Below are positions 2,427-20,627 of a stretch of DNA of 64,000 nucleotides, piece by piece. The position numbers and the translations under genes were made by a program. Within the stretch, counting starts at the first letter, position 1. Every line of letters starts with the position of its first letter. The notes beneath the pieces were generated by a model that saw only the letters and a program-made list of their open reading frames with translations, ran no database searches and was not told where the DNA came from. The DNA comes from Winogradskyella endarachnes (lineage in GTDB: Bacteria; Bacteroidota; Bacteroidia; Flavobacteriales; Flavobacteriaceae): contig NZ_WOWS01000004.1 in the NCBI RefSeq assembly GCF_009741275.1, positions 124,001 through 188,000 of the forward strand, in the 5' to 3' direction.

Positions 2427-3734
2427 TTGCGACTATTCGATTTTTCTTTAAAAGTAAATGGCTTTAAAATAGACAAGGCTAAAACTGCTTTGGCTAAAAT
2501 TCAGGCTAAAAATGACGCTGATTTTAAAACGTACATAGAGCAAAAAAAACAAGAGATTATTCTATATCATTTAAAACATAATTCGTTTTATAAAGCTTTA
2601 GGGAAATCGATAACTATTAATGATTGGAATTCTGTTCCAGTAATTACCAAGCGTCATTTACAACAACCTATTGAGCAACGCCTAAGTAATGGTTTTACAA
2701 CTAAAAACGTCTATTTAAATAAAACATCTGGCAGCTCTGGAGACCCTTTTATTTTTGCTAAAGACAAATGGTGCCATGCGATGACTTGGGCCGAAATTAT
2801 GAGCAGATTTGCTTGGTATGGTATTGATTTTAATAGCTCTAGACAAGCGCGTTTTTACGGAATTCCATTAGATAAAAAAGGCTATTATAAAGAACGTGTA
2901 AAGGATTGGTTTAGTAATCGTTATCGGTTTTCGGTGTTTGATTTGAGTGATACTGCTTTTAAAGAGACTTTAGATAGATTTAAATCAGATAAATTCGATT
3001 TTATTAATGGTTACACCAGTCCTATAGTACAATTTGCTAAATACTTAAAACGAAAAGATGTTATTTTAACCTCTATTTGTCCCAGTCTTAAAGTTTGTAT
3101 TGTAACGTCTGAAATGCTTTTTGAAGATGATAAAACGTTAATGGAAACTCAATTTGGTGTGCCTGTTGTTAATGAATATGGAGCATCAGAATTAGATTTA
3201 ATTGCTTTTGAAAATACTAATGATGAATGGCAAGTAAATAATGAAACCTTATATGTTGAAATCCTAGATAAAAAAGGAAATGTTTTACCTTATGGAGAAG
3301 AGGGTAGAATTGTAATTACATCATTATACAACAAAGCACATCCATTAATAAGATATGATGTTGGTGATGTTGGTGTGCTCTCTGAAAAAAGTACTTTAAG
3401 AAAGCCTATTCTAAAAAAACTAATTGGAAGAACTAATGATGTTGCCGTTTTACCTAGCGGAAAAAAAGCAGCTGGTTTAACCTTTTATTACATAACTAAA
3501 AGTGTTATTGAAAATGATGGTAATGTTTCAGAATTTGTGATAGAGCAATTAGCTTTAGACCATTTTATCATTCGTTTTGTCAGCAAAGAAGAACTTTCAA
3601 ATGAACAAAAAATGGTTATTACAACAGAAATGGAACGTTACTTAGAACCAGGAATTAATGTTGATTTTGAACGCGTTGAAATATTAAAACGTAGTAAATC
3701 TGGAAAACTAAAACAGTTTATTTCTAAGCTATAG
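2427..3734 (+). CDS. PaaK/CapK-like adenylate-forming enzyme (phenylacetate--CoA ligase family)
   Basis: This 435-residue protein belongs to the AMP-forming acyl-adenylate superfamily. The P-loop-like motif NKTSGSSGDPF is at residues 98-108, IRYDVGDVG corresponds to the ATP/ribose-binding region near residues 308-316, and LIGRTNDV follows, as in PaaK and the capsule-locus CapK proteins. The true substrate cannot be read from sequence; in polysaccharide loci such proteins are often annotated as phenylacetate--CoA ligases without evidence. The only plausible start is TTG at 2427, because the next in-frame methionine is near residue 118, after the catalytic motif. It is the only plus-strand gene of the locus and its stop overlaps the convergent glycosyltransferase gene by 11 bases. 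Confidence 0.8.
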   Translation: MRLFDFSLKVNGFKIDKAKTALAKIQAKNDADFKTYIEQKKQEIILYHLKHNSFYKALGKSITINDWNSVPVITKRHLQQPIEQRLSNGFTTKNVYLNKTSGSSGDPFIFAKDKWCHAMTWAEIMSRFAWYGIDFNSSRQARFYGIPLDKKGYYKERVKDWFSNRYRFSVFDLSDTAFKETLDRFKSDKFDFINGYTSPIVQFAKYLKRKDVILTSICPSLKVCIVTSEMLFEDDKTLMETQFGVPVVNEYGASELDLIAFENTNDEWQVNNETLYVEILDKKGNVLPYGEEGRIVITSLYNKAHPLIRYDVGDVGVLSEKSTLRKPILKKLIGRTNDVAVLPSGKKAAGLTFYYITKSVIENDGNVSEFVIEQLALDHFIIRFVSKEELSNEQKMVITTEMERYLEPGINVDFERVEILKRSKSGKLKQFISKL

Positions 3735-5934: not shown

Positions 5935-7176
5935 TTAATTGTTATTAACAGTTTGACCATAACCAACCGTTACACTAAAATAAAAAATTATTAAATAAGG
6001 GATTATTGGCACATTTGTAAAAAAACTACCAGATAAAAGTGCACAAAATAAAAATATAATAATCGGTAATTTTAAGGTTTTAATTTTAAGTATTTGAGAA
6101 AGTATTTTATTGTATAATAATGTAAGATAAAGTAAGGTCCCAGCAACACCTAGAAACCAAATCAAATCAATAATTTCAATTTCTGTTCTAAATTGGTGAA
6201 ACTCTGCTCCACCAAAAATATAGTTAAAGAAATTCCAGTTTTTTAGAATGTATGGAATAAATTCATGAGTTACATTTAAATCTCTATAGCTAAATAACAT
6301 CGTTGTTATACCGTGATTTTCATATACATTATTTAGTACCTGAAAATTATTTCTAAAAACCATAACACTATTTGAAAATGTAAAAACAAATAATAATCCT
6401 AACGTCGTTAAGATTAACAAAGCATAAGCTCTTTTTATATAAGCAAATAGAACATATAGTAAAAAAAGTAAATTAAATAAATAAACTGTTTTTGTACCTA
6501 TTAAGAAAGAAATAACGACTGAAGCTATTAAAAAATAAAAATTAATTGTGGTGTGTGTTTTTAAGTAGCTAGAAAAAAAATACAAAATAAAAATAATATA
6601 TATATAACTAGAGTGACTAGCGTGGAGAAAAAAACCATTATACCCAAATCTATTAGAGAAGCCTAAGTAGCTTTTAAATAAATCTAAATCAAAAATTAAC
6701 CCTGTAAAAATTGCAATAGCATTTATAACAAATATACTTTTAATGCTAAAATCTAAATAATTTAACTGCTTTCTTAAGGTTTCAAGGTTATGTTTTGAAT
6801 TCGGTTCGAGAGCAAAATACAAAACAAATATAAACATATAAGAATTAAGTGTATATACGTTTAGTATTGTTCTATTTAAAAAATCTCCGCGTAACAGAAA
6901 GTATTGACCAAAAAAATAAAAAACAGTAAAAATCGCAATTATTTTAATTAGGTTTTTACCTGACTCCTTTTTAAATTTAAATATATATATTAATAATAAA
7001 ACTTCCGCTATAAGCTTGATAACCCCTGAAACTCTCGTAAATTCATAGTAACTATACTTTAGATATTTGCTAACAAATTCACTAAAATAAAAACCTAGAA
7101 TTAGGAGTGATGGTATTACTAGCCTTAAATTAGGATTGGGCCTTTTTAGCTTGAAGAGTTTTGAAGTATTTAACAT
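5935..7176 (-). CDS. polytopic Wzy-like polysaccharide polymerase or O-antigen ligase candidate
   Basis: This 413-residue protein is very hydrophobic, with about ten to twelve predicted membrane helices and one longer soluble loop around residues 270-330 (DLNVTHEFIPYILKNWNFFN). That architecture, and its position among glycosyltransferases and Wzx, suggest a Wzy-type polymerase. Primary-sequence similarity in these families is poor, so the assignment is from context. The start at 7176 lies 47 bases inside the upstream GT2 gene; no better in-frame ATG follows soon after. The N-terminus FKLKRPNPNLRLVIPS is basic, as expected for the cytoplasmic side. Confidence 0.65.
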   Translation of the reverse strand: MLNTSKLFKLKRPNPNLRLVIPSLLILGFYFSEFVSKYLKYSYYEFTRVSGVIKLIAEVLLLIYIFKFKKESGKNLIKIIAIFTVFYFFGQYFLLRGDFLNRTILNVYTLNSYMFIFVLYFALEPNSKHNLETLRKQLNYLDFSIKSIFVINAIAIFTGLIFDLDLFKSYLGFSNRFGYNGFFLHASHSSYIYIIFILYFFSSYLKTHTTINFYFLIASVVISFLIGTKTVYLFNLLFLLYVLFAYIKRAYALLILTTLGLLFVFTFSNSVMVFRNNFQVLNNVYENHGITTMLFSYRDLNVTHEFIPYILKNWNFFNYIFGGAEFHQFRTEIEIIDLIWFLGVAGTLLYLTLLYNKILSQILKIKTLKLPIIIFLFCALLSGSFFTNVPIIPYLIIFYFSVTVGYGQTVNNN

Positions 7177-7915: not shown

Positions 7916-8948
7916 GTAAGGTAATTTTTTTTAGTTCCTTAATATAATCAGCAAACTTATATTTCTTAAGATAAGAATTTCTAATAATTGCTTTCGAATT
8001 CTTTTTATTTCTTGAAAAATCATCTAAAAGTGATACAAAGTTATCTAAATTACAAGTTAGAACTTTGGCTACATTATCATTTCTGAGTTTGTCCGATATG
8101 TTTTGTTTTGTAGTGAAGATTGTTAATCCACTCATTAATGCCTCAATATATACTAGTGGAGAAACTTCATAATTTTCATCGCTTAAAAATAATAACGCAT
8201 CGTTTTGCTGTATTGCTTCAAATTTATCCTTTTCATTTAATAATGGTCCATAATAGGTAAGAAATTCATATGATTTATTCAAAATATTAATTAAGGTCTC
8301 GTCTTTTTCTGATAAGGTTCCTCCATAAATATTAAGTTTACACTTAATTTCTTGTGATTTAATTAACTCTGCTAGCTTTTGAATTCTATAGATACCTTTT
8401 TCTTTGGAAAGATTAGATAAAAAAATAAAATGCACCTCATTAGATTTATTAAACCTCAACGGTATAGACTTATAATAATCCGGCAACGCATTAGGTAATA
8501 AATAGCAGTTTAGCCCAAATTTTTCAACACTTTTTAATTGAACCTCATTAATAACTATAATTTTTGTTCTTAAAAACAACCATTTGTTATAAAACTTAAT
8601 TTTATGTTCTAAACCATTAGCATGTATATGGATAGTAACATTGGATGTTCTAAAATGACAAACCAATAATATTATAAAATCTCGATAAAAAGCAAATCCC
8701 TTAGGCGTAAAATTAAGATAAACACGGTCTTTATTCTTAACTTTTAAAACATTTTTTAAAATTTTAAATAGAAATGATATTTTTTTAAAACTAAACTTGC
8801 CAAAATTACCGTAATCTTTTGCCTGTGCGGTATCAATTGTCTTAATTTCTATTTCATTATCTAGCGCTAGAGCGTTTTTTATATGTGTTGATATAATTTT
8901 TACTCCATTATTAGGTCCAGAAATAGGAAAAACAAAAAATAGACTCAT
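7908..8948 (-). CDS. glycosyltransferase family 4 (group 1)
   Basis: This 346-residue protein has a GT-B fold. The C-terminal half contains HFIFLSNLSKEKGIYRIQKL (about 198-217), YYGPLLNEKDKFEAIQQNDA, and then VSPLVYIEALMSGLTIFTT, the GT4 donor-binding E-x7-E-like region. The N-terminal half has the usual SGPNNGVKIISTHI acceptor-domain start. It should act on the cytoplasmic face of the inner membrane with a nucleotide-sugar donor. Its start overlaps the stop of the upstream polytopic gene in a 4-base ATGA arrangement, suggesting translational coupling. Confidence 0.85.
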   Translation of the reverse strand: MSLFFVFPISGPNNGVKIISTHIKNALALDNEIEIKTIDTAQAKDYGNFGKFSFKKISFLFKILKNVLKVKNKDRVYLNFTPKGFAFYRDFIILLVCHFRTSNVTIHIHANGLEHKIKFYNKWLFLRTKIIVINEVQLKSVEKFGLNCYLLPNALPDYYKSIPLRFNKSNEVHFIFLSNLSKEKGIYRIQKLAELIKSQEIKCKLNIYGGTLSEKDETLINILNKSYEFLTYYGPLLNEKDKFEAIQQNDALLFLSDENYEVSPLVYIEALMSGLTIFTTKQNISDKLRNDNVAKVLTCNLDNFVSLLDDFSRNKKNSKAIIRNSYLKKYKFADYIKELKKITLHG

Positions 8949-10195
8949 TGAGCGTTTTCACTTAATTTTTTATTATTAAAATTTGCATTTACGAGTAAAC
9001 ATGTAAAAAACACAAAGAAAATAATTCCCTTATTTCTTACTAAAGCAGACTCCGTTAGGTTAAAACACAAATATATAAATCCAATAGCAACTAAAAGCTT
9101 ATTATGATCAATAAGTCCTTTTTTAAATATAATAAAGAATAAGTAAACAAGGACTAAAAAACCAAAAACACCTGTATAAATGAATTCTGTTAAATATTGG
9201 TTATGAGAATTAAACTTTTTAATCATACCATGCGTAAATTTATTCTTTTCATAATACTTAAGTAATTCGTCAATCTCATCACCTGGAGAAACTCCAATAA
9301 AAAAATTATCACTAATAAGGTCTATTGAGCAATAATACTTGGCCACTCTAGCTCTAACGGCTGTAAAATCTGAACCAGAAAAATCCCGAGAAGTAAAATC
9401 TCTTTTAAAATTAATTCCATTTAGTTTATCTACAACAAATATAGATGATAGAGATATACTTGAAACCAATAAGGCTAGTATAAGTAGCTTAAATTTTGTG
9501 TGTGTTTTTAATAAAAACGTAAAATATATTATAAGCACAATAAATAGACCCGTCAATAAAAAAGAGTTTAGAAAAAATACTAAAACTGTTAAATATAGTA
9601 TTAGTAATAGCTTAATTCTAAACCTAATGTTAAAGATTTTTTTTACCTCAATTGCATCGTAACAAATAATAAACAAAGCAAATAATACTTGAGTACCAAA
9701 ATAAATAGGGTGTGTATTTTCCATAACTTTGGTAAGCTCCATATAGGCAAAAAAATTACCATTAGCCTCATTGAATGGATTAGGTGATGCATATTGCCAT
9801 GTTCTAAAAATGGCTGTAATAAAAAAAATTAAACTTACTATTAATACGGAATAAACAAACCACTTTAAAACTTTGTGTATTAATTTATTAGTTATCAAAC
9901 TTGAAAGTAAATAGCAGATAAAAGGAATTATAACAAAAGCCGCACGATATTCAAGTTTTCTCAGACCTCTTTCAAAATTATTGGTATATAGAAGAGCAAT
10001 GACCATTAATACAAATAGTAAAATAAATAAGGTGTATAAAAGCTGCCATTTTTTTTCCGCCGTCTTGTTTAAAATAGAATAAACAATAGCTGAAATTAAT
10101 GTTAAAATAATAGCAATATTGTTTGCTAACATCCACAACGGAATTGTAGCTGCCGTTGAGATTAATAAAAATTCAATTAATTTTTCAAACTTCAT
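8945..10195 (-). CDS. O-antigen ligase/polymerase family membrane protein
   Basis: A 416-residue polytopic protein with about ten to twelve helices and a large periplasmic loop in the C-terminal half. That loop contains RARVAKYYCSIDLISDNFFIG, GVSPGDEIDELLKYYEK and FTHGMIKKFNSHNQYLTEFI. The SHNQYLTEF segment is the H-N-x-Y/F-L motif typical of the Wzy_C/O-antigen ligase domain (as in WaaL), which makes this the best ligase or polymerase candidate of the three polytopic proteins here. It overlaps its upstream neighbour by 11 bases and its downstream neighbour by 4. Confidence 0.8.
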   Translation of the reverse strand: MKFEKLIEFLLISTAATIPLWMLANNIAIILTLISAIVYSILNKTAEKKWQLLYTLFILLFVLMVIALLYTNNFERGLRKLEYRAAFVIIPFICYLLSSLITNKLIHKVLKWFVYSVLIVSLIFFITAIFRTWQYASPNPFNEANGNFFAYMELTKVMENTHPIYFGTQVLFALFIICYDAIEVKKIFNIRFRIKLLLILYLTVLVFFLNSFLLTGLFIVLIIYFTFLLKTHTKFKLLILALLVSSISLSSIFVVDKLNGINFKRDFTSRDFSGSDFTAVRARVAKYYCSIDLISDNFFIGVSPGDEIDELLKYYEKNKFTHGMIKKFNSHNQYLTEFIYTGVFGFLVLVYLFFIIFKKGLIDHNKLLVAIGFIYLCFNLTESALVRNKGIIFFVFFTCLLVNANFNNKKLSENAQ

Positions 10196-11324
10196 ACCTT
10201 TTTGGGTGTAGGCTATAATAAATTATCAATAGATAAAAAATGAAAAGTGTATCGAAATAAATAAAGACATTATCAGACAAAAATAATAGATTCATAAATA
10301 CCAGAAGTGGAATTACTTTTTTGTTTACTAAATTAATTTTAAAAAATCCAAAAACCCAAACCAAATAAGAAATGAAACCCATTTCAATTATTATTTTTAA
10401 AATATCTGAATGTAAGAAACTGATGTTTTCAAAATTGTCTGTTAGAAATAAATTAGTAGAACCTAATGAATTACCAAATAATAGGTTTGATGAGAAATGA
10501 TTGAGAGTATCTGTATAAACTCTTAATCGTCCTTGTGTAAACCAATTGGGACTAATACCTGTAATGTTTGTTATCAATTCATCAAAGTTGCCTTGAATGA
10601 AATTATAAACTATTATAAGAAGCGCAAAATTTAAAAATATAAACCAATAATAAACGTTTTTTTTGTTTGATGCTCTTTTATTTCTAATACTAAAAAACCA
10701 GTATATAGACAAACCAAGGATTGCTCCTAAAATAGATATTCTTTTAAATGCTAACAAAAACAAAATGACAGATATAATAGCGCGTTTTTTACGCTTTTCT
10801 ATCAAATAAAAAATAGTAAACAGGCCAAATGGAAAAGCCATCCACGACTCTGTTTTGAGAGTCGATGTTGTTAAAGCCAGAATAAAATCATTAATGATAT
10901 TTACGTTAAAAAAAAAGTTAATATTAGTAACTATAAAAATAATAGCGTAAACAAAAAATAGGTGATCTAAAATAACGCCTACAGGCTTTTTTATAACGGT
11001 TGTTATTAGTATTACAGAAAGAATAGGTAGTAATATTAAAAGGGACTCTTCAAAAAATCTAAATGATAAATCAAAGCTAATGATTGAGACAATCAAATTA
11101 AGTGCAATTAAACTAGAAAACAAAAGAAGATTCTTTAGTGGTGATGCATATATTTTTAATTTTCTAATGCCAAAAAAAGCGAACAATAAAAAAACAGGAG
11201 GTATTAGGTATTTGGTGTAACGCAAACTAGAACCATAATTAGTAGCAATTGCAGATACGCCCACTAATAAGCATAAAAACCATAGTAATAAAGAACCTTT
11301 TTTTACTATTAGTGTTTTATCCAT
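10185..11324 (-). CDS. polytopic membrane protein, Wzy-like
   Basis: This 379-residue protein has about ten hydrophobic helices. A periplasmic-type loop around residues 250-310 carries NWFTQGRLRVYTDTLNHFSS and NSLGSTNLFLTDNFENISFLHSDILKIIIEMG. The GR-x-x-x-Y and LHSDILKIIIE segments resemble the conserved loop of O-antigen polymerases (the H-N/S-x-x-L type motif). I infer a Wzy-type role, with the caveat that two further candidates are in the same operon. Both ends overlap neighbouring genes (11 and 8 bases). Confidence 0.65.
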   Translation of the reverse strand: MDKTLIVKKGSLLLWFLCLLVGVSAIATNYGSSLRYTKYLIPPVFLLFAFFGIRKLKIYASPLKNLLLFSSLIALNLIVSIISFDLSFRFFEESLLILLPILSVILITTVIKKPVGVILDHLFFVYAIIFIVTNINFFFNVNIINDFILALTTSTLKTESWMAFPFGLFTIFYLIEKRKKRAIISVILFLLAFKRISILGAILGLSIYWFFSIRNKRASNKKNVYYWFIFLNFALLIIVYNFIQGNFDELITNITGISPNWFTQGRLRVYTDTLNHFSSNLLFGNSLGSTNLFLTDNFENISFLHSDILKIIIEMGFISYLVWVFGFFKINLVNKKVIPLLVFMNLLFLSDNVFIYFDTLFIFYLLIIYYSLHPKRYEV

Positions 11325-12336
11325 TTAAAAGTCCTTTTAAGTCAAAATTATTCTTTTCTCTGAATTTTTTAAATAATAAATCACTTCTTAAATAGTCTTC
11401 ATAAGAAAAAACATCGCAACCATATTCACTGGCATAAAACAATAAAGAAGTTGTAAAACCATATACTTTTAACCCAGAGTTTGTTAAAATAATTTCCTCA
11501 AATGCTATTTCGTTTGGTATTACTTCTGTTTTTATTTTATGTTGTTTAATTAGGTTTTCTATTTTAACACAGTTCGCTTTAGATTGAGCAGGATGAAACT
11601 TTATATAAATACTTCCGGCATTAATATCTTCTAGAATTCTTCTTATTCCGTTTAGCATTGTGCTTAACTTCATATTGCCCTGCTCAACAGCTCCTTCTAA
11701 AACTAATACAGAGCTCCCAGAGATGTCATAATCGATATGATTAGATGGTAGCATTTTTATTCTTTCTACATGATATGATAAACCCTGAAACCCTTTTGAA
11801 GTAATAGAATAAAATATTGGTGGTGTATTTTTTGCAAACCTTGTTAAATCAAAGTTTTTAACATAAAAAATACGGTTTTTACCAATAAATGATAATGCGT
11901 TTATAGTACTCTTAACCATTTTTTTTATTAAACTTTTGTCTTTTTTATGCATTAAGTACTTAGAGTATGCATTAACGCCCTCTTCTATTATATGGACTTC
12001 TTCACATAAATTATGAGTTGCAATAATTTGCATTACTGGGTGAAAAACATGAGGCAAATAGGCCCTGAACTTTATTTCTTGGCTAAATAAATTATTTAAC
12101 AATTCATCAATCTGGTTGATATATTTATGCTTTTTATAGAAGTTATAAATATTAAAAGAGTCTAAATGATCATGTATAGTTGTAACGTCTAAAACAGTAT
12201 AACTACCAATCTCTTTATGCTTATAGTTTCTTGAGGTTACTAAAACAATTTCATCGTTTTTTAGTTTAAATTTTTTAATTATTGCTTTAGTCACATAATA
12301 AGTTAAATGGCTATGTATATAAAAGAGATTTTTCAT
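11317..12336 (-). CDS. sialyltransferase-like GT-B glycosyltransferase (GT38/GT52-type motifs)
   Basis: This 339-residue protein carries the paired signature of bacterial sialyltransferase-type GT-B enzymes. HIIEEG at residues 115-120 fits the (D/E)(D/E)G motif that holds the catalytic base, YIKFHPAQSK at 244-253 holds the HP motif that contacts CMP, and GFTTSLLFY at 293-301 fits the downstream S/T motif. The start FYIHSHLTYYVTKAII also looks like polysialyltransferase-type proteins. The expected donor is a CMP-activated ulosonic acid, and a CMP-sugar synthetase homologue is encoded four genes upstream in the same operon. The exact family (GT38, GT52 or other) and the acceptor cannot be settled by eye. 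Confidence 0.7.
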   Translation of the reverse strand: MKNLFYIHSHLTYYVTKAIIKKFKLKNDEIVLVTSRNYKHKEIGSYTVLDVTTIHDHLDSFNIYNFYKKHKYINQIDELLNNLFSQEIKFRAYLPHVFHPVMQIIATHNLCEEVHIIEEGVNAYSKYLMHKKDKSLIKKMVKSTINALSFIGKNRIFYVKNFDLTRFAKNTPPIFYSITSKGFQGLSYHVERIKMLPSNHIDYDISGSSVLVLEGAVEQGNMKLSTMLNGIRRILEDINAGSIYIKFHPAQSKANCVKIENLIKQHKIKTEVIPNEIAFEEIILTNSGLKVYGFTTSLLFYASEYGCDVFSYEDYLRSDLLFKKFREKNNFDLKGLLNG

Positions 12337-13766
12337 TTAAACTTATTCAACAGGTTTTTGAAGAATTTACGTTCTAAAATTAATAAAGTAATTAAATAAT
12401 AAAAGATAGACAAAGGTACTATGTAATACTTTTTTTCATCAGTTATGAATAGATTTTTTGCAATGTAATAAAATGGAATAGCTACTAAAGCAGACACCAC
12501 TATTACTTTAAAAAACTGAACAACAGGAAAGTACGACAACAAATTTGTTGATAGCCTTCTATTAATAAATAAAATTGGAATAATTACAGTAGTGTAGCTT
12601 GCTATTAATGTTGCTATAACAGCACCAATATTACCATATATTGGAATTAATATTAGATTACAAAACACATTAACAACAGCGCTAGCAATAACATGGATTG
12701 GTGCTAAGTTCTTTAGGCCAATTATACCCATAAAAATACTAAACGGAAAAACTGAGATTAAAAAACGTAAGGTATATATTTTAAAAATACTTCCTGATGC
12801 TTCAAATCGAGAACCAAATAAAAATATGATTATTTCAGCAGAAAACAAAAAACAAAAAACTATAATCGGCAGCAGTAAAACTGACGTTTGTTTGGTTGTT
12901 GCTTTTGTGATTTTTAGTGTTTCGGCAATATTATTGGCTCTCAATAATTCTGTTATTTGGGGCGTAACAACTGTAAACAAAGATGTTGTAATCACAGCAA
13001 TAAAAGGAATATTAAATGCTCCTACTTGATAAAAAGCAAATACCTCTGGAGTTTCTAAACCAGAAATCATATACTTATCTATCTGCATATTTAATATACC
13101 TGCTAAAACCAAAAATATGGTTGGCAAAACAAATTTTAACTCTTCATTTTTTAAATTAACATCTGTTTTAAAATTAAATGTTTTAAAAGATTTAGCGAAA
13201 GGAATACTAAACACTACAAACTTTACAATTTCATATATAAGAAAAAACTGTAAGATTTCAGTAATTGTAAACTCATGGGTACCGAAATAAAAAAAGCCAC
13301 CTAGATAACTAATTAAAAACAAAAAGCTCGTTACGTTTAGATAATTGAGCTTATTAGAGAATAAGAAAAAATTAGAGAAAAAAGTATTAGTTATTTTAAA
13401 TAAAATAATAAATACAAAATAGACAATATAGATTGGGAAAAAATCATTTTCGAACCATAGAGCAAGCTTGTCCTTTAGTACAAAAAAAAGAAATGCGGCT
13501 AATACCGAAAAGAACATCATACTAAAGAAAAATCGCTTATATAAGGCATTCTTCTCTAATAAAGTAGTGTATTTACTAATATAATAATTAAGTGATGTAG
13601 GAAATGAAGATGCAACCGTTACAGCAAAGGTTAAGATAACAAAAAACTGTTGAAGCTTACCAAATTCTGAAACATCTAATATTACTCTAGCTAAACCAAT
13701 ATTTAAAACTAAAGTCTCTAGAAGTCTAATAAAATTACTCGCACTATATTTTAATTGAGTTTTCAA
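12333..13766 (-). CDS. polysaccharide flippase, Wzx/MOP family
   Basis: A 477-residue protein with about twelve to fourteen membrane helices and the usual Wzx architecture. The N-terminus ASNFIRLLETLVLNIGLARVILDVSEFGKLQQF is the first helix plus the G-x-F/L-x-Q-F turn found in MOP flippases, and INRRLSTNLL with NIGAVIATLIASYTTVIIPILF occurs in the C-terminal half. It should move undecaprenyl-diphosphate-linked repeat units across the inner membrane. It overlaps the HAD gene and the sialyltransferase-like gene by 4 bases each, so it sits inside the sugar-acid module and is likely co-expressed with it. Confidence 0.88.
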   Translation of the reverse strand: MKTQLKYSASNFIRLLETLVLNIGLARVILDVSEFGKLQQFFVILTFAVTVASSFPTSLNYYISKYTTLLEKNALYKRFFFSMMFFSVLAAFLFFVLKDKLALWFENDFFPIYIVYFVFIILFKITNTFFSNFFLFSNKLNYLNVTSFLFLISYLGGFFYFGTHEFTITEILQFFLIYEIVKFVVFSIPFAKSFKTFNFKTDVNLKNEELKFVLPTIFLVLAGILNMQIDKYMISGLETPEVFAFYQVGAFNIPFIAVITTSLFTVVTPQITELLRANNIAETLKITKATTKQTSVLLLPIIVFCFLFSAEIIIFLFGSRFEASGSIFKIYTLRFLISVFPFSIFMGIIGLKNLAPIHVIASAVVNVFCNLILIPIYGNIGAVIATLIASYTTVIIPILFINRRLSTNLLSYFPVVQFFKVIVVSALVAIPFYYIAKNLFITDEKKYYIVPLSIFYYLITLLILERKFFKNLLNKFK

Positions 13767-14395
13767 TTTAGTTTTATAGCATCTTTTCTAAATGTAGAAA
13801 TATAATTGGGACTTAATTCCTTTAGAGTTTCGTTGTTGTAACCAAAAAAAGATATTTCATTATTATCAGCGGCTTCAAAATCATTAATAGAGTCACCAAT
13901 TAAGCATGTACTCTCCATTGCGTAGTTATGTTTAATAATAATATCTTTAACTAACTTGGATTTTGCTGTTGGAGAACCCTCAATAGATAAAAAATATTTA
14001 TCTAAATTTAATGCTTTACACAAAAACCGAAGTTCTTCTTGGTCAGATCCTGAGACTATATGAAACTTATAGTTATTATAATTTCCCTTTATAAATGATA
14101 CACTATCTTTTATTAGATTCTTTTGATCTACAAGCGCATTTAGCATAATATCAGAAAAACGACTAGCGTATTCTAAAATTTCTTGTTCAGTTGTTGCTCT
14201 ACCAATAATTTCTTCAAAAAAATATCTTATTTTAACATATCTAGAAAGACCTCCATTATATCTATGATAGTCAATAAGCTTATCTACGTCTAACGGTTTA
14301 AAATCTTTAAAAATCTCTCTAAACCCAAAGTCTCTAACTTGCATGGAGTCTAATATTACACCATCAAAATCCCATAGAATTGTTTTAAATTTCAT
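13763..14395 (-). CDS. HAD-superfamily phosphatase of the ulosonic-acid module
   Basis: This 210-residue protein contains all four HAD motifs: LWDFDGVILDS at residues 8-18 (D9 nucleophile and D11), VSGSDQEE for motif II, SPTAKSKLVKDII with the motif III lysine, and CLIGDSINDFEAA for motif IV. The helical cap after motif I fits the C1 beta-phosphoglucomutase-like subgroup and differs from the capless KdsC type. The likely role is removal of a phosphate from a sugar-acid intermediate, because the gene is directly adjacent to the CMP-sugar synthetase and aldolase genes. The substrate is inferred from context only. Confidence 0.82.
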   Translation of the reverse strand: MKFKTILWDFDGVILDSMQVRDFGFREIFKDFKPLDVDKLIDYHRYNGGLSRYVKIRYFFEEIIGRATTEQEILEYASRFSDIMLNALVDQKNLIKDSVSFIKGNYNNYKFHIVSGSDQEELRFLCKALNLDKYFLSIEGSPTAKSKLVKDIIIKHNYAMESTCLIGDSINDFEAADNNEISFFGYNNETLKELSPNYISTFRKDAIKLN

Positions 14396-15070
14396 TTAAT
14401 TATTGTGTTTATATATTAATTCTGCCATATCAAAATCATCTGGCCAGTCTATATCAAATGAAGTATAGCCTTTTGTTTCGAACAGAAATGGTTTAGCACC
14501 AATTCTATCTAACATAACCTTGTAATTAGAAACAGAATTTATAAAAATACCACTATTTATCTCGTATAGTTTTGGTAAGGTTTGAGTTCTTGGCCATTTT
14601 TCTTTATTTCTATCGTAATTAATACTTCCGTTTTTATCCCATAAAAACGTTTGTAAGTTATTTACAGACATTAAACTATCAAATGTATCTTCTTCTAAAT
14701 TCTTAAGATAAGTTTTTATAGCTAAATCATAATGTTCTGATTTTAAAAATGGTGATGTAACATGTGTCCATAATACATGACCAGATTTAATTATTTTAGG
14801 TACATACTTAATTAAATCATCTGTACTAGTAGAGGATGATGCTAGATGCTCTGGTCTATTGTCTACAATAATTTTATCACCAAAGCGCTCTACAATTTTC
14901 TTCACTTCATTATCATTCGTAGAAACAACTATATTGTCAACTAGCTTAGCTTTTAATAATTGTTTAATCTTTAAAAATAATAATCCTCCTTCTACTTCAG
15001 CAAAAGGCTTCGTGTTTTTGTTAGGAACTCTTTCACTACCTGCTCTACATGGTAAAAATACTGTCATCAT
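14396..15070 (-). CDS. acylneuraminate cytidylyltransferase family protein (CMP-sugar synthetase)
   Basis: This 224-residue protein starts with FLPCRAGSERVPNKNTKPF (residues 5-23), the CTP-binding motif of the NeuA/KdsB family. LVDNIVVSTNDNEVKKI, VLWTHVTSPFLKSEHYDLAI and the C-terminal TKGYTSFDIDWPDDF (magnesium-binding D-x-D region) follow. The family activates 2-keto-3-deoxy sugar acids (sialic, legionaminic, pseudaminic acids, Kdo) as CMP-glycosides. The canonical partners NeuB and NeuC are absent, and a different aldolase lies immediately upstream with a 1-base overlap. The true sugar acid is therefore unknown. The gene abuts the HAD gene with no gap. Confidence 0.88.
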   Translation of the reverse strand: MMTVFLPCRAGSERVPNKNTKPFAEVEGGLLFLKIKQLLKAKLVDNIVVSTNDNEVKKIVERFGDKIIVDNRPEHLASSSTSTDDLIKYVPKIIKSGHVLWTHVTSPFLKSEHYDLAIKTYLKNLEEDTFDSLMSVNNLQTFLWDKNGSINYDRNKEKWPRTQTLPKLYEINSGIFINSVSNYKVMLDRIGAKPFLFETKGYTSFDIDWPDDFDMAELIYKHNN

Positions 15071-16620
15071 TATATTAGACTATAAATTGAAGATGTTGAT
15101 AAATTCTTATATTTTGTAGGTGTTAAGGCTAATACATTTAAGTTTTTAATTAATAACAAATCGTTAATAATAGCCTGATTTTCTTGTGCTAATATCTGTT
15201 GTGTTTGGTTAATTAAAGCATCATAACCATCAAAACCAACTAAAAACACATTGTAGACTCCAAGATCTAATCCTATTTGAATAGCAATAGTTAGAGGTGA
15301 TTCCGTGGATGATTTAGTAAAACTTATAGAAGAGAGTTCTTTAGATATTGATTTAATCTCTTTGGGAATAACCGTACCCATTACCCTAGGAAATGGCGGG
15401 TATATACAGGTTTGAGATAGTTTTGTGTGATCGTTTATGTTACTTAATAACTTTTCACTCTCAAAACCAGATAAAGCATAAAACTGATCGCATTTCACAT
15501 CTAAATAATCAGAAACATTTCTGGCCCCAGCATGTATTAGACAAACATTCTTTTCTTTATTTATTAGTTTTTTAATGGCATTGTTATGATTTTTTGCAGA
15601 TTTCCCTCCTCCTAATATTATTGCCGAATTGTAAATCTTTTCTTTTTTTTGTAGAGTTGGTAATTTAAAATTATCCTTAATATCTTCCGTTTGATTTTTA
15701 AGAGCATTTACAACACTACTCATAGGATATCTATTCATCCCTACCCATTCCATTACTTGCTTTTGAGGAAGTGAAAAAGCACCAGAAAACATATATGGTA
15801 AATTTGTTCCCCATCCATGTTTCTTTTTCATTTCTTCAAATAAAGCAACCACTTTACCTAATTTAGTATACTCTATTTCTATGTTTTTAACCTTATTTAA
15901 ATAGGTTAAGAAAAGTTCTGTTTTTAGATTACCTGCTCCTCTTCCCATTCCTGTAATTGTACAATCTACAATCTCACAACCTTCATTTATTGAAGTAATA
16001 GTATTAATGAGCGCCATTTCTAAATTATTATGTCCATGAAAACCAAGTTTTACATTCGTTTTGGTTTTTACTAAAGTCATAATATCTATAACATCATTTG
16101 GCATAATACCTCCAAAAGAATCTACCATATAAAAATAGTCTATAGTATCTTCTAATCCTTCTAAGCCATTTAAAAAATCAGAATCTTGTTTCCAATTAGA
16201 CATATACATAACATTAAAAGCAACCTCAAAACCCATCAACTTTATGGCTTTTGCTAATTCTATTGCTCTTTTAAAGTTTTTTGGGTCTATTGCAATCCTA
16301 ACCATAGCAATATATTTAAGGCATGGCTTTAATAATTCTTCTACATGATGACCTCTTATATCCTTTTCATTAAGAATAATAGTTAGTTTTTTTGTAGGCA
16401 TTAAAGCTTTCAATTCTGCCATTACATGTTTTGGGCAATAAAAATATTCTCCCAAATAACCATTTAATGGTGTGCTTCGATAACCAATTTCTACATATTC
16501 AATGGGAAGAACCTCCATTGTTTTACAATAATCAAAAACAAGATCTTTGTTAAAATCCCAATTAGTATAATAACCACCATCTCTTAATGTACAATCGAGT
16601 GTCTTAAATTCTTTTTTCAT
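15070..16620 (-). CDS. DRE-TIM metallolyase aldolase fused to a C-terminal Rossmann-like domain
   Basis: Residues 1-270 form a DRE-TIM metal-dependent aldolase of the HMG-CoA lyase/4-hydroxy-2-oxovalerate aldolase type. LDCTLRDGGYYTNWDF at 8-23 holds the R-D metal and catalytic residues, and GFHGHNNLEMAL near 193-204 holds the H-x-H metal ligands. Residues from about 330 to 516 form a second domain with AIILGGGKSAKNH and YNVFLVGFDGYD, reminiscent of DUF115/MptE-like Rossmann proteins. The 516-residue total is much longer than a stand-alone aldolase (about 340). Such aldolases make 4-hydroxy-2-oxo acids, the chemical class that includes 3-deoxy-2-ulosonic acids. Placement directly before a CMP-sugar synthetase suggests it makes the keto-acid that is then activated; that is inference. 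Confidence 0.82.
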   Translation of the reverse strand: MKKEFKTLDCTLRDGGYYTNWDFNKDLVFDYCKTMEVLPIEYVEIGYRSTPLNGYLGEYFYCPKHVMAELKALMPTKKLTIILNEKDIRGHHVEELLKPCLKYIAMVRIAIDPKNFKRAIELAKAIKLMGFEVAFNVMYMSNWKQDSDFLNGLEGLEDTIDYFYMVDSFGGIMPNDVIDIMTLVKTKTNVKLGFHGHNNLEMALINTITSINEGCEIVDCTITGMGRGAGNLKTELFLTYLNKVKNIEIEYTKLGKVVALFEEMKKKHGWGTNLPYMFSGAFSLPQKQVMEWVGMNRYPMSSVVNALKNQTEDIKDNFKLPTLQKKEKIYNSAIILGGGKSAKNHNNAIKKLINKEKNVCLIHAGARNVSDYLDVKCDQFYALSGFESEKLLSNINDHTKLSQTCIYPPFPRVMGTVIPKEIKSISKELSSISFTKSSTESPLTIAIQIGLDLGVYNVFLVGFDGYDALINQTQQILAQENQAIINDLLLIKNLNVLALTPTKYKNLSTSSIYSLI

Positions 16621-16624
16621 AACT

Positions 16625-17146
16625 CTACTTAAATAAATTCGTTACCATATCACTAATATTTACTGTGATAAAAAATGGGTCATAGAAATTATTTATTGTT
16701 TGTCTTTTATATGTATTTATTCCGTCTGTTTTAACTAAGTGTTTGTTTGGTTTAAAAATTAAGTTGAACTCATTAGAATTAATTATCTTTTTATTATTAC
16801 CAGAAGAAAAAACGACTTCATCAATTTTAATAACGGAATTATGCTTTTTAGACCCAACATCAAAACGAAGTTTTACTGGGTATATTTCTTCAGGAAGATT
16901 AAAAACTAACTCTTGGATTTTTTTGCTTCCTTTTACACCCACGCTTACCTGATTGTCTGACCTATATTGACTAAAAATGTGCTCTGAAAAAAACATATTA
17001 AAAATATCATCTTCTAAGACAGTAGCTTTTACTATAACGGTTAAAAATCCTTGTTTTACTTTAGCTTTATCAATTGAAGAAGATTTATTTTTTTCCTCAC
17101 AACAAAAAAGTGTTAGCAAAATAAAAACTACTAATACTTTTCTCAT
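16625..17146 (-). CDS. putative lipoprotein, first gene of the polysaccharide operon
   Basis: I place the start at 17146, giving about 173 residues, because MRKVLVVFILLTLFCCEEKN is a clear lipoprotein signal peptide with a cysteine after LLTLF, and because an upstream ATG at 17182 would lie inside a well-formed promoter. The mature protein is lysine-rich with alternating hydrophobic residues that suggest beta structure. I recognise no domain. It ends 4 bases before the aldolase gene, so it leads the operon. It could be a periplasmic or outer-membrane accessory protein of glycan assembly, but nothing in the sequence proves that. Confidence 0.7.
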   Translation of the reverse strand: MRKVLVVFILLTLFCCEEKNKSSSIDKAKVKQGFLTVIVKATVLEDDIFNMFFSEHIFSQYRSDNQVSVGVKGSKKIQELVFNLPEEIYPVKLRFDVGSKKHNSVIKIDEVVFSSGNNKKIINSNEFNLIFKPNKHLVKTDGINTYKRQTINNFYDPFFITVNISDMVTNLFK

Positions 17147-17171
17147 GAAATTGTGTTTTAAAATCTTAAAA

Positions 17172-17201
17172 CAAAGATACAATAGTAATCTTGTATAACA
17201 A
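17172..17201 (-). promoter_or_regulatory. promoter of the lipoprotein-aldolase-glycosyltransferase operon
   Basis: On the minus strand this reads TTG (17201-17199), 19 bases of spacer, then TATCTTTG (17179-17172). That is a match to the Bacteroidota -33 TTG and -7 TAnnTTTG elements at the standard distance. Transcription would begin near 17166, leaving a leader of about 20 bases before the ATG at 17146. It would drive the run of tightly packed or overlapping genes down to 3724. Confidence 0.72.
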
Positions 17202-17311: not shown

Positions 17312-18163
17312 CTACAATTTTGAAATAGCTACAACTAAACTGTCCTTCCAATTTAGAGTTTTTTTATCTAATATTTGAGATATTTTAGAAGTATCTAATA
17401 CACTATATTTTGGTCTTTTAGCAGGTGTTGGGTAATCTTTAGTTCCTATTTTATTTAATTGAATGTTGCTTTGGTTTAATCTAAAAATTTCCTTGGCAAA
17501 ATCATACCAGCTAATAACTCCTTTATTACTATAATGGTAAACACCGTATGCGTTGTTTTTAGATTCAATTAATTCTACTATCACCACTGCCAAATCTATA
17601 GCATAGGTTGGGCTACCTATTTGATCACCTACAACGCCTAGTTCATCTCTTTGATCAGCCAATCTTAGCATGGTTTTTAAAAAGTTGTTACCAAACTCAG
17701 AATATAACCATGATGTTCTTATAATAAAATGATTTTTTATTGTGTTTATAATTTGCTGTTCGCCTTCTAACTTAGTTTTTCCATATACACCAATAGGATT
17801 TGTACTATCAGTTTCTTTATATGGTTTTGATGCATTACCATCAAACACAAAATCTGTAGAAACATGTATTAATGTTACTTGGTGTTTACTGCACGTTTCT
17901 GCTAAATATTTAGGCCCTAATACGTTAATTTTATAGGCCAACTCCTTTTCAGATTCTGCCTTATCTACATTGGTGTAAGCCGCACAATTAATACAATAAT
18001 CAAAGGCCTGAAAATTAAAAGTAGACTCAACCTCATCTTTATTAGTAATATCTAGTTCTGAGGATGTTTTATATGTAAACTTAAGCTTTGGGTATAAACC
18101 AGCTACACTTTTAATACATTGAGCCAGCTGACCTCCTCCTCCAGTAACTAATACTTTTAACAT
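17312..18163 (-). CDS. rfbD: dTDP-4-dehydrorhamnose reductase
   Basis: RfbD uses NAD(P)H to reduce dTDP-4-keto-L-rhamnose to dTDP-L-rhamnose, the last step of the pathway, in the cytoplasm. The 283-residue protein has the Rossmann motif VTGGGGQLAQ (residues 5-14), INCAAYTNVDKAE, the STDFVFDG segment and the catalytic Y-x3-K in GVYGKTKLEGE near residues 129-139. It overlaps rfbC by 7 bases and is the last gene of the rfbBACD run. The 165-base gap between it and the lipoprotein gene contains the next operon's promoter and no clear terminator. Confidence 0.95.
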   Translation of the reverse strand: MLKVLVTGGGGQLAQCIKSVAGLYPKLKFTYKTSSELDITNKDEVESTFNFQAFDYCINCAAYTNVDKAESEKELAYKINVLGPKYLAETCSKHQVTLIHVSTDFVFDGNASKPYKETDSTNPIGVYGKTKLEGEQQIINTIKNHFIIRTSWLYSEFGNNFLKTMLRLADQRDELGVVGDQIGSPTYAIDLAVVIVELIESKNNAYGVYHYSNKGVISWYDFAKEIFRLNQSNIQLNKIGTKDYPTPAKRPKYSVLDTSKISQILDKKTLNWKDSLVVAISKL

Positions 18164-18705
18164 GATTGTGCATCTTTAAATTTAGGCAATAACAAATCTT
18201 TGTCTGATAGTATAAAGTCAGACGATTGTAGTTGCCAGTTGATATTTAAATCTTCGTCGTTATAAATTACGCCTGCTTCAGAGGCTTTATTATAAAAATT
18301 ATCGCATTTATAACTAAAAATAGTTTCGTCTTCTAGAACTATAAATCCATGAGCAAATCCTCTAGGTACAAATAATTGTGTTTTGTTTTCTTCAGTTAAT
18401 TCAACAGAAATATGTTCTCCAAACGTTTGGGAATCCTTTCTCATATCTACAGCAACATCTAAAACACCCCCTTTAACAACACGTACAAGTTTTGCTTGAG
18501 CATATTCGCCCATTTGATAGTGTAAACCTCTTAAAACACCTCTAGATGACTTAGATTCATTATCTTGTACAAACTGAATATCTAATCCTAATTTTGCATT
18601 AAAAGTTTGTTGATTGAAAGACTCAATAAAATAACCTCGTTTATCTTTAAAAATTTGAGGTTGAAGAATAAAACACCCTTTTAATTTAGTCTCTTTTATC
18701 GTCAT
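18157..18705 (-). CDS. rfbC: dTDP-4-dehydrorhamnose 3,5-epimerase
   Basis: RfbC epimerises dTDP-4-keto-6-deoxyglucose at C3 and C5. The 182-residue cupin protein has the diagnostic GVLRGLHYQ (catalytic H62), KLVRVVKGGVLDVAVDMR, and FVPRGFAHGFIVLED with the following Y-K-C-D-N segment. The length is typical. It is separated from rfbA by 2 bases and overlaps rfbD, so all four rhamnose genes are translated as one unit. Confidence 0.96.
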   Translation of the reverse strand: MTIKETKLKGCFILQPQIFKDKRGYFIESFNQQTFNAKLGLDIQFVQDNESKSSRGVLRGLHYQMGEYAQAKLVRVVKGGVLDVAVDMRKDSQTFGEHISVELTEENKTQLFVPRGFAHGFIVLEDETIFSYKCDNFYNKASEAGVIYNDEDLNINWQLQSSDFILSDKDLLLPKFKDAQSC

Positions 18706-18707
18706 AA

Positions 18708-19571
18708 TTATTCAGATACTAAGCTTAATAAATGTTTACCATAACCGCTTTTAGTTAATGGTTGAATGACTTTTTTAAATTGGGATTTATCTATGTATCC
18801 CATTTTAAAAGCTGCTTCTTCTATAGCACCAATTTTTAAGCCTTGGCGCTCTTCTATAACTTGTACAAATTGGGACGCTTGCATTAAAGATTGAAAAGTA
18901 CCTGTGTCTAACCAAGCTGTACCCTTATCTAATACACTTACTTTTAACTTTCCCTTTTTTAAATAAGCCTTGTTTACATCTGTAATTTCTAACTCTCCTC
19001 TTTTACTTGGTTTTATATTTTTTGCTATTTCTACCACTGTATTATCGTAAAAATAAATACCAGGAACAGCGTAATTAGATTTAGGATGTTCTGGTTTTTC
19101 TTCAATTGAGATAGCAACATCATTAGCATCAAACTCTACAACACCATAGCGTTCTGGGTCGTGTACATGATACGCGTAAATAATTCCGCCTTCTGGATCA
19201 TTATTTTGTTGAAGTAATTCTGATAAACCAGAACCATAAAATATATTATCACCTAATATTAATGCTACTTTATCATTACCAATAAATTCTTCTCCTATGA
19301 TAAAGGCTTCTGCCAAACCATTTGGAGCCTCTTGTACTGCGTACTGAAAGTTACAACCATAAGATTTACCATCGCCTAATAATTTTTGAAATAATGGTAA
19401 ATCTTGAGGTGTAGAAATAATGAGAATATCTCTTATCCCAGACCACATTAAAGTGGATACGGGATAATATATCATAGGCTTATCGTATATAGGCATTAAT
19501 TGTTTACTCACAGCCAAGGTTAATGGATGTAATCTTGTGCCAGATCCGCCTGCTAAAACTATTCCTTTCAT
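18708..19571 (-). CDS. rfbA: glucose-1-phosphate thymidylyltransferase
   Basis: RfbA makes dTDP-glucose from glucose-1-phosphate and dTTP, the first committed step to dTDP-rhamnose. [18 protein letters not shown] (residues 1-18) is the nucleotide-binding signature of sugar nucleotidylyltransferases, with [17 protein letters not shown] and [15 protein letters not shown] also typical of the short RfbA/RmlA class (287 residues). It lies 42 bases downstream of rfbB and 2 bases upstream of rfbC. Confidence 0.97.
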
Positions 19572-19613
19572 ATTATTGGTTTGTTATACTTTTTAATCAA
19601 AAATTATAATTAA

Positions 19614-20627
19614 TTATTTTTTGTATTTATCTAGATACCACTCAATAGTTTTAATAATACCACTTTCAAAATTTTCGTCGGCTTTCCAGTTTAAATCGTC
19701 CTCTATTTTAGAGGCATCAATTGCGTATCTAAAATCATGTCCAGGTCTATCTTTTACAAATGAAATTTGCTCAGAATACGATTTAGATTTTGGTAATAAT
19801 TCATCTAAAATATCACAGATTTTATTAGCAATATATAAGTTAGTACGTTCGTTTTTACCACCAATATTATAAGTTTCTCCTGGATTGCCATTTTTAAAGG
19901 CTAAATAAATTCCTTTACAATGATCTTCTACATACAACCAATCTCTAATGTTTTTTCCATCTCCATAAATAGGAATTGGGTCATTATTAATTGCTTTTCT
20001 TATTATTGTTGGAATTAGCTTTTCATCGTGTTGTTTAGGTCCGTAATTATTGCTACAATTAGTAGTTACCACATTCATTCCGTAGGTGTGAAAATAACTT
20101 CTTACAATAAAATCTGAAGATGCTTTAGAGGCACTATAAGGACTGTTAGGTGCATAAGGTGTTTTTTCTGTAAATAAACCTGTTTCACCTAATGTACCAT
20201 ACACCTCATCTGTAGAAATATGATGAAACCTATTGTTTTTGCAACCATCTTTAAATAAAAATGGTGCTTCCATCCAATGCTTTTTTGCAACATTTAAAAG
20301 ATTGAATGTGCCATATACATTTGTATTAATAAATGCATCGGGATTTTTTATAGAATTATCTACATGAGATTCTGCGGCAAAATGTATAACTCCAGAAAAT
20401 TTATATTGCTCAAACAATGCTTCCACTAACTGGGTGTCGCAAATGTCACCTTTAATAAAAGTATAATTATTATTTGACTCTAATGCAGTTAAATTAGCAA
20501 GGTCACCTGCATAGGTTAATAGGTCTAGATTAACAACTTCAATATCTGTATTAGTATTTAATAAATAAGTAATAAAATTTGCACCTATAAAACCAGCACC
20601 TCCAGTTACAAGAATTTTTTTATTCAT
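19614..20627 (-). CDS. rfbB: dTDP-glucose 4,6-dehydratase
   Basis: RfbB converts dTDP-glucose to dTDP-4-keto-6-deoxyglucose with bound NAD+. The 337-residue extended SDR has VTGGAGFIGANFITYLL (residues 7-23), HFAAESHVDNSI, the catalytic STDEVYGTLG triad region and YSASKASSD with the Y-x3-K. NCSNNYGPKQHDEKLIP and DWLYVEDHC are family hallmarks. It overlaps the upstream Wzz-like gene by 8 bases, tying rhamnose supply to chain-length control in expression. Confidence 0.97.
   Translation of the reverse strand: MNKKILVTGGAGFIGANFITYLLNTNTDIEVVNLDLLTYAGDLANLTALESNNNYTFIKGDICDTQLVEALFEQYKFSGVIHFAAESHVDNSIKNPDAFINTNVYGTFNLLNVAKKHWMEAPFLFKDGCKNNRFHHISTDEVYGTLGETGLFTEKTPYAPNSPYSASKASSDFIVRSYFHTYGMNVVTTNCSNNYGPKQHDEKLIPTIIRKAINNDPIPIYGDGKNIRDWLYVEDHCKGIYLAFKNGNPGETYNIGGKNERTNLYIANKICDILDELLPKSKSYSEQISFVKDRPGHDFRYAIDASKIEDDLNWKADENFESGIIKTIEWYLDKYKK

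Follow-up and report, generated by a model that had tools for sequence, protein, structure and literature searches.

The operon

This analysis concerns a five-gene operon of Winogradskyella endarachnes (assembly GCF_009741275.1, 3.6-Mb genome), found in a stretch of 64,000 nucleotides, hereafter the window, that spans positions 124,001-188,000 of contig NZ_WOWS01000004.1. The operon occupies positions 11317-16620 of the window on the minus strand, its neighbouring genes abut or overlap by 1-4 bases, and in the order of transcription it encodes an aldolase fusion, a cytidylyltransferase, a HAD phosphatase, a flippase-like protein and a PF07388 transferase. An earlier reading of the same DNA, the original prediction, had proposed that such an operon builds an ulosonic acid activated with cytidine monophosphate (CMP) by means of an aldolase. 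The genes and domains are as follows (aa, amino acids).

16620-15070, minus strand: aldolase fusion, 516 aa; HMGL-like (Pfam, 2.7e-20)
15649-16620, minus strand: aldolase domain of the fusion, residues 1-324; DRE-TIM/HMGL-like TIM barrel with R13-D14 and H195-x-H197
15073-15648, minus strand: C-terminal domain of the fusion, residues 325-516; predicted Rossmann-type fold nearest the Maf glycosyltransferase 5mu5
14396-15070, minus strand: cytidylyltransferase; CTP_transf_3, 2.1e-17; NeuA/PseF-type, under the PseF cut-off
13763-14395, minus strand: HAD phosphatase; HAD_2, 2.7e-13
12333-13766, minus strand: Wzx-like flippase; weak Polysacc_synt/MurJ match
11317-12336, minus strand: PF07388 polysialyltransferase-type glycosyltransferase; A-2_8-polyST, 1.9e-10; EEG at 118-120 and HP at 248-249

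The five genes lie where they had been predicted, and Pfam confirms the aldolase, the cytidylyltransferase, the HAD protein and the glycosyltransferase. The motifs that had been read by eye are also present, including R13-D14 and H195-G-H197 in the aldolase, DFD (9-11), VSGS (114-117) and GDSIND (167-172) in the HAD protein, and the EEG and HP motifs of the transferase. The cytidylyltransferase scores 64.1 bits against PF02348 (gathering cut-off 22.6) and 79.3 bits against the PseF model TIGR03584 (curated cut-off 205.7), which places it over the first and under the second, while the transferase exceeds the gathering cut-off of PF07388 (41.3 against 23.3 bits). The gene that had been named a Wzx flippase exists, but its family match is weak (Polysacc_synt 7.6e-4, under the family cut-off).

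Linkage of aldolase and cytidylyltransferase in bacterial relatives

A scan of genome contigs for the fused aldolase recovered 179 relatives, and the neighbourhood counts given here cover the best 80. These are mostly Bacteroidota by their record titles, with three records from Balneolota (L063, L085, L115), and among the best 80 of 179 the nearest, at 93% identity across the aldolase, is that of an uncultured Winogradskyella. In 78 of the 80 loci one of the next five genes downstream on the same strand encodes a cytidylyltransferase, and all 78 match PF02348 (E up to 0.001). The two loci that lack it (L102, L106) lie at the end of a contig and have no downstream gene in the record, and the enzyme is present for all 75 aldolases that have five downstream genes in the record. 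The two genes are directly adjacent in 66 of 78 cases, with a gap of at most 50 base pairs in 60 of these 66. A HAD gene follows within five genes downstream in 71 loci, each with a HAD_2 match (71/71). Co-occurrence of the aldolase fusion and the cytidylyltransferase in other genomes, which the original prediction had put forward as a check, is thus borne out.

To set these counts against a background rate, cytidylyltransferases other than the aldolase-linked enzyme were counted within five genes of other gene clusters in the same loci, with cluster names assigned mostly by eye. Across seven clusters the rate was 0-26% (SDR-like 6/79, GT4-like 0/33, RmlA-like 4/26, GT2-like 1/25, DegT-like 5/19, ABC-like 3/15 and Wzc-like 0/16), and in an eighth, c11, with a NeuB hit as its representative, it was 10/17. 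The pairing of aldolase and cytidylyltransferase is far beyond chance, and these background rates rule out a chance neighbourhood.

Fusions in viral contigs and loci on plasmids

Aldolase relatives were also found in 33 viral loci of IMG/VR. In 29 of them, which fall into 14 clusters at 90% identity, the aldolase open reading frame (ORF) runs on into a KdsB-like cytidylyltransferase; the remaining loci are L120, L122, L151 and L152, and in L122 a separate aldolase adjoins a NeuA-type gene. Two of the 29 fusions were scanned with Pfam and gave HMGL-like and CTP_transf_3 matches, and 17 aligned viral fusions retain both active-site signatures. As a further observation, the genes beside the fusion in L121 match a GDP-mannose dehydratase, a DegT aminotransferase and a sulfotransferase, and L136 has a UDP-glucose dehydrogenase-type match, so that viruses like these may encode surface-sugar synthesis.

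In collections of plasmids and phages, 118 plasmid and 11 phage records matched, and nine loci were examined. In Leisingera, the aldolase and a KdsB-type gene are adjacent in three plasmid records, and the region examined (L163) has a HAD gene too and gives a partial match to the profile of the C-terminal domain (3.2e-11). The other eight loci hold more distant DRE-TIM homologues, from Mesorhizobium, Niallia, Paraburkholderia, Priestia, Desulfobaculum, Streptomyces, Legionella adelaidensis and a Salmonella Infantis contig of the phage collection, and neither type of cytidylyltransferase adjoins the homologue in any of them. The lack of a partner in these eight loci suggests that the pairing is a trait of this subfamily and not of the fold.

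The two domains of the fusion protein

The best solved relative of the aldolase domain is 3dxi, a 'putative aldolase' of Bacteroides vulgatus from structural genomics (2.7e-105 over residues 5-315), with DmpG-type aldolases next. The AlphaFold model of the whole fusion (66 sequences, pLDDT 93) is likewise nearest to 3dxi, then to 4-hydroxy-2-oxovalerate aldolases, and then to carboxylases and isopropylmalate synthases. In an alignment of 38 module sequences (21 bacterial and 17 viral) the metal-site Arg-Asp and His-x-His residues (R13, D14, H195, H197) are invariant. No claim is drawn for the equivalents of BphI Leu87 and Leu89, since the alignment is gapped at that stretch.

The C-terminal domain, whose fold the original prediction had missed, was modelled from 71 sequences with a pLDDT of 94.7. 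In a VIA structure comparison the top match was the Maf glycosyltransferase 5mu5 (Z 14.9, 180 aligned residues, 3.3 A), followed by SteA (11.9), MptE-type 6-hydroxymethyldihydropterin pyrophosphokinase (HPPK, 11.8), thiamin pyrophosphokinase (10.4), CstII (10.4), a Pasteurella sialyltransferase (9.9) and CstI (9.8). Foldseek alone gave no match at E <= 0.001 (best 1.1e-3, MptE-type HPPK), and 5mu5 was not among the matches listed. Furthermore, Pfam scans of three C-terminal domains gave nothing above cut-off, with PF01973 unmatched even at E up to 1, and a C-terminal profile searched against PDB sequences for Maf or CstII gave nothing above noise. A separate MptE-like protein is encoded in 16 of the 33 viral loci, and the one member scanned matches PF01973 just below cut-off (1.2e-7); profile-profile comparison of the C-terminal domain with these viral proteins gave E 2.2e-4 at a probability of 45, and an unrelated control gave E 0.19. 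The model suggests a fold like that of Maf/GT42 proteins, and the domain is probably one for CMP-ulosonate binding or transfer, although the fold alone is no proof of glycosyl transfer, because pyrophosphokinases share it. Elsewhere in the same genome, the NeuB locus on contig C1 encodes a 612-aa protein (L159:12771-14609) whose C-terminal part appears Maf/GT42-like by eye.

Two types of cytidylyltransferase and the candidate product

Beside the aldolase the cytidylyltransferase is NeuA-type in 48 and KdsB-type in 31 of the 79 labelled rows; that KdsB-type enzymes serve the same aldolase had also escaped the original prediction. On a quick tree of the aldolases the type changes 16 times, at least eight of these changes being forced by starred branches, and this rules out one aldolase clade per cytidylyltransferase type. 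The mean for shuffled labels is 24.7, so the type label is still clustered on the tree. Such swapping between the NeuA and KdsB types is what one would predict for two enzymes that activate products of one kind.

Further hints to the product come from 50 KdsB-type module domains (32 bacterial, 17 viral and one from Leisingera), which were compared with the organism's own KdsB. Of the residues of the latter, R10, K19, D98 and D229 are kept in all 50 and Q96 in 46. A histidine common to the organism's own KdsB and five solved KdsB chains, which we take to be a contact to 3-deoxy-D-manno-octulosonic acid (Kdo), is Gln in 46 of 50 module domains, and in addition G178 is replaced by Cys in 46 and C206 by Ile in 45. 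These substitutions lead us to read the substrate of the KdsB-type enzymes as Kdo-like but not Kdo. The presence of a HAD protein in the cassette suggests a phosphorylated intermediate. No sugar-supply gene was seen as a constant member of the cassette, and the aldehyde may therefore be a central metabolite; our guess would be glyceraldehyde 3-phosphate or erythrose 4-phosphate, which would give a C6 or C7 acid.

Transferases in the related loci

PF07388-like genes occur in 15 of the 80 loci, 14 of them free of NeuB hits, and GT29-like genes in 13, with no overlap. In the other 52 loci, 94 of 139 selected downstream genes were scanned, of which four match PF07388 and five are MptE-like. The GT29-like assignment rests on Pfam (Glyco_transf_29) in 11 of the 13 loci, and all 11 proteins scanned are over the cut-off. 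As a separate observation, the cluster to which they belong (c18, 13 loci, e.g. L058:12844-13608) consists of short bacterial GT29-like proteins, and the GT29 sialyltransferase family is known mainly from eukaryotes.

A proposed aldolase-dependent route

We consider it likely, by a reasonable though not a wide measure, that the aldolase, the cytidylyltransferase and the HAD protein make up a biosynthetic cassette for a CMP-activated 3-deoxy-2-ulosonic acid, sialic- or Kdo-like, which does without a synthase that depends on phosphoenolpyruvate (PEP). What the analysis shows is the order, linkage and fusion of the genes, the predicted folds, the metal motifs and the lack of a NeuB or KdsA hit in some carriers; we infer each reaction, as well as the identity of the sugar, and the route would run in four steps. 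First, the metal-dependent DRE-TIM domain would form a pyruvate enolate and add it to a sugar aldehyde, which is probably phosphorylated. Second, the HAD enzyme would take off the phosphate. Third, the CTP_transf_3 enzyme would form the CMP-sugar. Finally, the PF07388 transferase would move the sugar into a surface polysaccharide, a step that in other loci might fall to GT29 or MptE/Maf-type proteins, or perhaps to the C-terminal domain of the aldolase itself.

Several observations weigh against this interpretation, beginning with the composition of the cassette and the residues of the aldolase. A same-strand HAD gene was not found within five genes in 9 of the 80 loci; of these, L102, L106 and L090 have at most one downstream gene in the record, and L043 has a HAD gene on the other strand. 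As to the transferases, 8 of the 13 GT29-like loci also have NeuB, so that GT29 may serve the NeuB product and only PF07388 gives clean support. In the aldolase domain, the position of DmpG/BphI His20, a catalytic residue of those enzymes, is Tyr in all 38 module sequences. The position of Tyr290 is Tyr in one of the 38 and mostly Asn or Lys in the others; this residue controls stereochemistry in BphI (PMC3962088). Scores against the 4-hydroxy-2-oxovalerate aldolase models are far under their cut-offs, at 86.3 against 286 bits and 94.5 against 229 bits (TIGR03217 and PRK08195). Since the metal-site residues are kept and the His20 and Tyr290 positions are changed, the domain should be a metal-dependent pyruvate enzyme with another mode of acceptor handling.

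Alternative explanations

Another enzyme might make the ulosonic acid. The cassette could make a CMP-acid while the DRE-TIM domain carries out some other step, such as chain elongation, a Claisen-type condensation or the making or breaking of an intermediate, and leaves the ulosonic acid to an HpcH/HpaI aldolase or a different enzyme. The loss of the DmpG catalytic residues fits this, as does an HpcH/HpaI-type gene (cluster c27, e.g. L113:11538-12254) that lies between the aldolase and the cytidylyltransferase in 10 of the 80 loci, matches PF03328 in 10 of 10 and is always accompanied by a NeuA-type cytidylyltransferase. Both aldolase loci of the genome G112 also carry an HpcH-like gene by ORF reading. 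In such loci the C-C bond could be made by the HpcH protein, which also counts against our interpretation, and they are the main fact that it leaves unexplained: either there are two pyruvate additions or the roles are split in those loci. However, an HpcH-type gene is missing from the five-gene neighbourhood in 68 of the 78 loci that have a cytidylyltransferase, the viral fusion partner of the cytidylyltransferase is the DRE-TIM domain and not HpcH, and the folds nearest to the domain after 3dxi are the 4-hydroxy-2-oxovalerate aldolases, ahead of the carboxylases and isopropylmalate synthases. This alternative is unlikely on balance.

A second possibility is that the acid for the cytidylyltransferase comes from a PEP-dependent NeuB or KdsA encoded elsewhere in the genome, and that the DRE-TIM enzyme, although it shares the polysaccharide locus, serves an unrelated purpose. 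The similarity of the window's cytidylyltransferase to PseF-type enzymes, which it resembles most, speaks for this, as does the rest of the genome, which also counts against our interpretation. NeuB, NeuC, KdsA and KdsD-like genes had been described as absent from the operon; this holds for NeuB in the window (which lies on contig C34), but NeuB, KdsA and a KdsD-type protein are all encoded on other contigs, NeuB (a single match) and a KdsD-type gene on C1 and KdsA on C53, and NeuB has a NeuC-like neighbour by eye. Against this possibility, those routes could be supplied by two more cytidylyltransferases of the genome, a KdsB-type enzyme next to a HAD-like gene (L161) and a NeuA-type enzyme (L160) that adjoins nucleotidyltransferase-like and SDR-like genes, all neighbours being assigned by eye.

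The related loci argue for separate supplies. Of the 80 loci, 17 have NeuB close to the aldolase, and more than one cytidylyltransferase is present in 16 of them, as against 1 of the 63 loci without NeuB; NeuB loci thus have a separate cytidylyltransferase, and NeuB does not appear to feed the aldolase-linked one. KdsA was found near the aldolase in none of the 80. A NeuB or KdsA that feeds the operon's cytidylyltransferase had been named at the outset as a challenge to the proposal, and both enzymes do exist in the genome, but the NeuB loci have a cytidylyltransferase of their own.

Whole-genome searches point in the same direction. In a phylum sample of 296 genomes, eight carry a full-length fusion, the window genome included. 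Four of the seven other carriers (G198, G054, G112 and G123) show no NeuB, and in three of these, G054, G112 and G123, the whole-genome search gave neither a KdsA-model match nor a PF00793 synthase match; overall, the KdsA model matches in four of the eight carriers, the window genome among them, and not in the other four. G112 is the strongest case free of NeuB and KdsA: in its single contig only two PF02348 genes were found, each beside one of its two aldolases. In G123 the only PF02348 gene found is beside the aldolase, and G198, a single contig with a gene order much like that of the window, has KdsA, no NeuB and two PF02348 genes, one of them by the aldolase. On the other side of the balance, G054 has three PF02348 matches, one by the aldolase and two away from it (one below cut-off), and G054 and G123 seem to be metagenome-assembled, which makes the absence of NeuB and KdsA weaker there. 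NeuB is present in G202, G203 and G005, each with three or four PF02348 matches. Together with the fusion of the aldolase to a cytidylyltransferase in viral contigs, the neighbourhood counts and whole-genome searches disfavour a supply of the acid by NeuB or KdsA, and we hold this explanation to be quite improbable.

An aldol shortcut to Kdo itself, in which the cassette would join arabinose 5-phosphate and pyruvate whether or not KdsA is present, is very improbable: 31 of the 79 labelled rows are KdsB-type and the six KdsB-type enzymes scanned (four bacterial, two viral) score over two NCBIfam KdsB subfamily cut-offs, but all six fall below the kdsB equivalog cut-off, the conserved histidine is replaced in nearly all module domains along with the other changes described above, and the same aldolase is also served by NeuA-type enzymes.

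The core of the original prediction, an aldolase-dependent and PEP-independent route to a CMP-acid, has good support from the linkage, from the viral fusion and from the carriers with no NeuB or KdsA hit, while the aldol reaction itself is putative, with the lost DmpG residues and the HpcH-type genes as arguments against it.

Surroundings of the operon

Directly upstream of the aldolase lies a doubtful further member of the operon:

16625-17182, minus strand: 185-aa protein without a Pfam match

Relatives of this protein occur in 5 of the 80 loci, and four copies are directly upstream of the aldolase. Further upstream, genes at 17312-20627 resemble the dTDP-rhamnose genes RmlA-D (by eye from ORFs). 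Three large membrane proteins (5935-7176, 8945-10195 and 10185-11324) resemble O-antigen polymerases or ligases; two of the three match Wzy_C, one just below cut-off, and the 5935-7176 protein has no NCBIfam match. At the end of the polysaccharide locus, on the opposite strand, a gene at 2427-3734 encodes a PaaK-like adenylate-forming ligase that scores under the family cut-offs.

Relation to known systems and implications

All routes to CMP-ulosonic acids that we know of begin with a NeuB- or KdsA-type synthase, which depends on PEP. The Kdo pathway, which as we understand its steps runs through KdsD, KdsA, KdsC and KdsB, resembles the cassette in joining a C3 unit to a sugar phosphate, in a HAD-type phosphatase and in activation by a CTP_transf_3 enzyme, and the KdsB-type variants of the cassette are clear KdsB homologues, but it has the PEP-dependent KdsA in place of the DRE-TIM aldolase, and the KdsB residues differ. 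The NeuB-dependent nonulosonic pathways, to sialic, legionaminic and pseudaminic acids, share the NeuA/PseF-type cytidylyltransferase and the PF07388 transferase, whereas the window has no NeuB, and where NeuB is near the aldolase a second cytidylyltransferase is present in 16 of 17 loci. The 4-hydroxy-2-oxovalerate aldolases DmpG and BphI have the same fold and the same R-D and H-x-H residues, and are the nearest named NCBIfam families; they differ at the His20 and Tyr290 positions, in the scores far under cut-off and in lacking the extra C-terminal domain, and the five-gene operon of the window has no acetaldehyde dehydrogenase. The C-terminal domain, for its part, is predicted to share its fold with Maf flagellin glycosyltransferases, GT42 sialyltransferases and MptE-like PF01973 proteins, but the domains scanned have no PF01973 match and the domain is joined to an aldolase; we know of no Maf or GT42 protein with such a fusion.

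NanA and Kdo aldolase carry out pyruvate-aldehyde chemistry on ulosonic acids, in the direction of breakdown and in vitro, and NanA has a fold different from that of the cassette aldolase. To our knowledge, neither has been linked to CMP activation, and the aldolase routes to ulosonic acids of which we are aware are solely catabolic or in vitro reactions. The cassette would be a form of CMP-ulosonic acid biosynthesis in which another enzyme makes the C-C bond, and no account of this pathway was seen in titles and abstracts of full-text PMC literature, a collection with most subscription papers outside it.

To conclude, the chances are about even that the cassette represents a third, PEP-independent route to CMP-activated 2-keto-3-deoxy acids beside those of NeuB and KdsA, one that would extend across Bacteroidota and Balneolota, reach plasmids of Rhodobacterales and take the form of a single aldolase-cytidylyltransferase protein in viral contigs. 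In that case the Maf/GT42-like fusion of the bacterial enzyme may couple synthesis and use of the sugar, and the sugar itself may be a C6 or C7 acid unseen as a CMP donor. If true, the cassette would provide new aldolases for glycan synthesis, it would explain the cytidylyltransferases and sialyltransferase-type genes of organisms that have no NeuB, and searches based on NeuB and KdsA would miss sialic-acid-like capacity in genomes.

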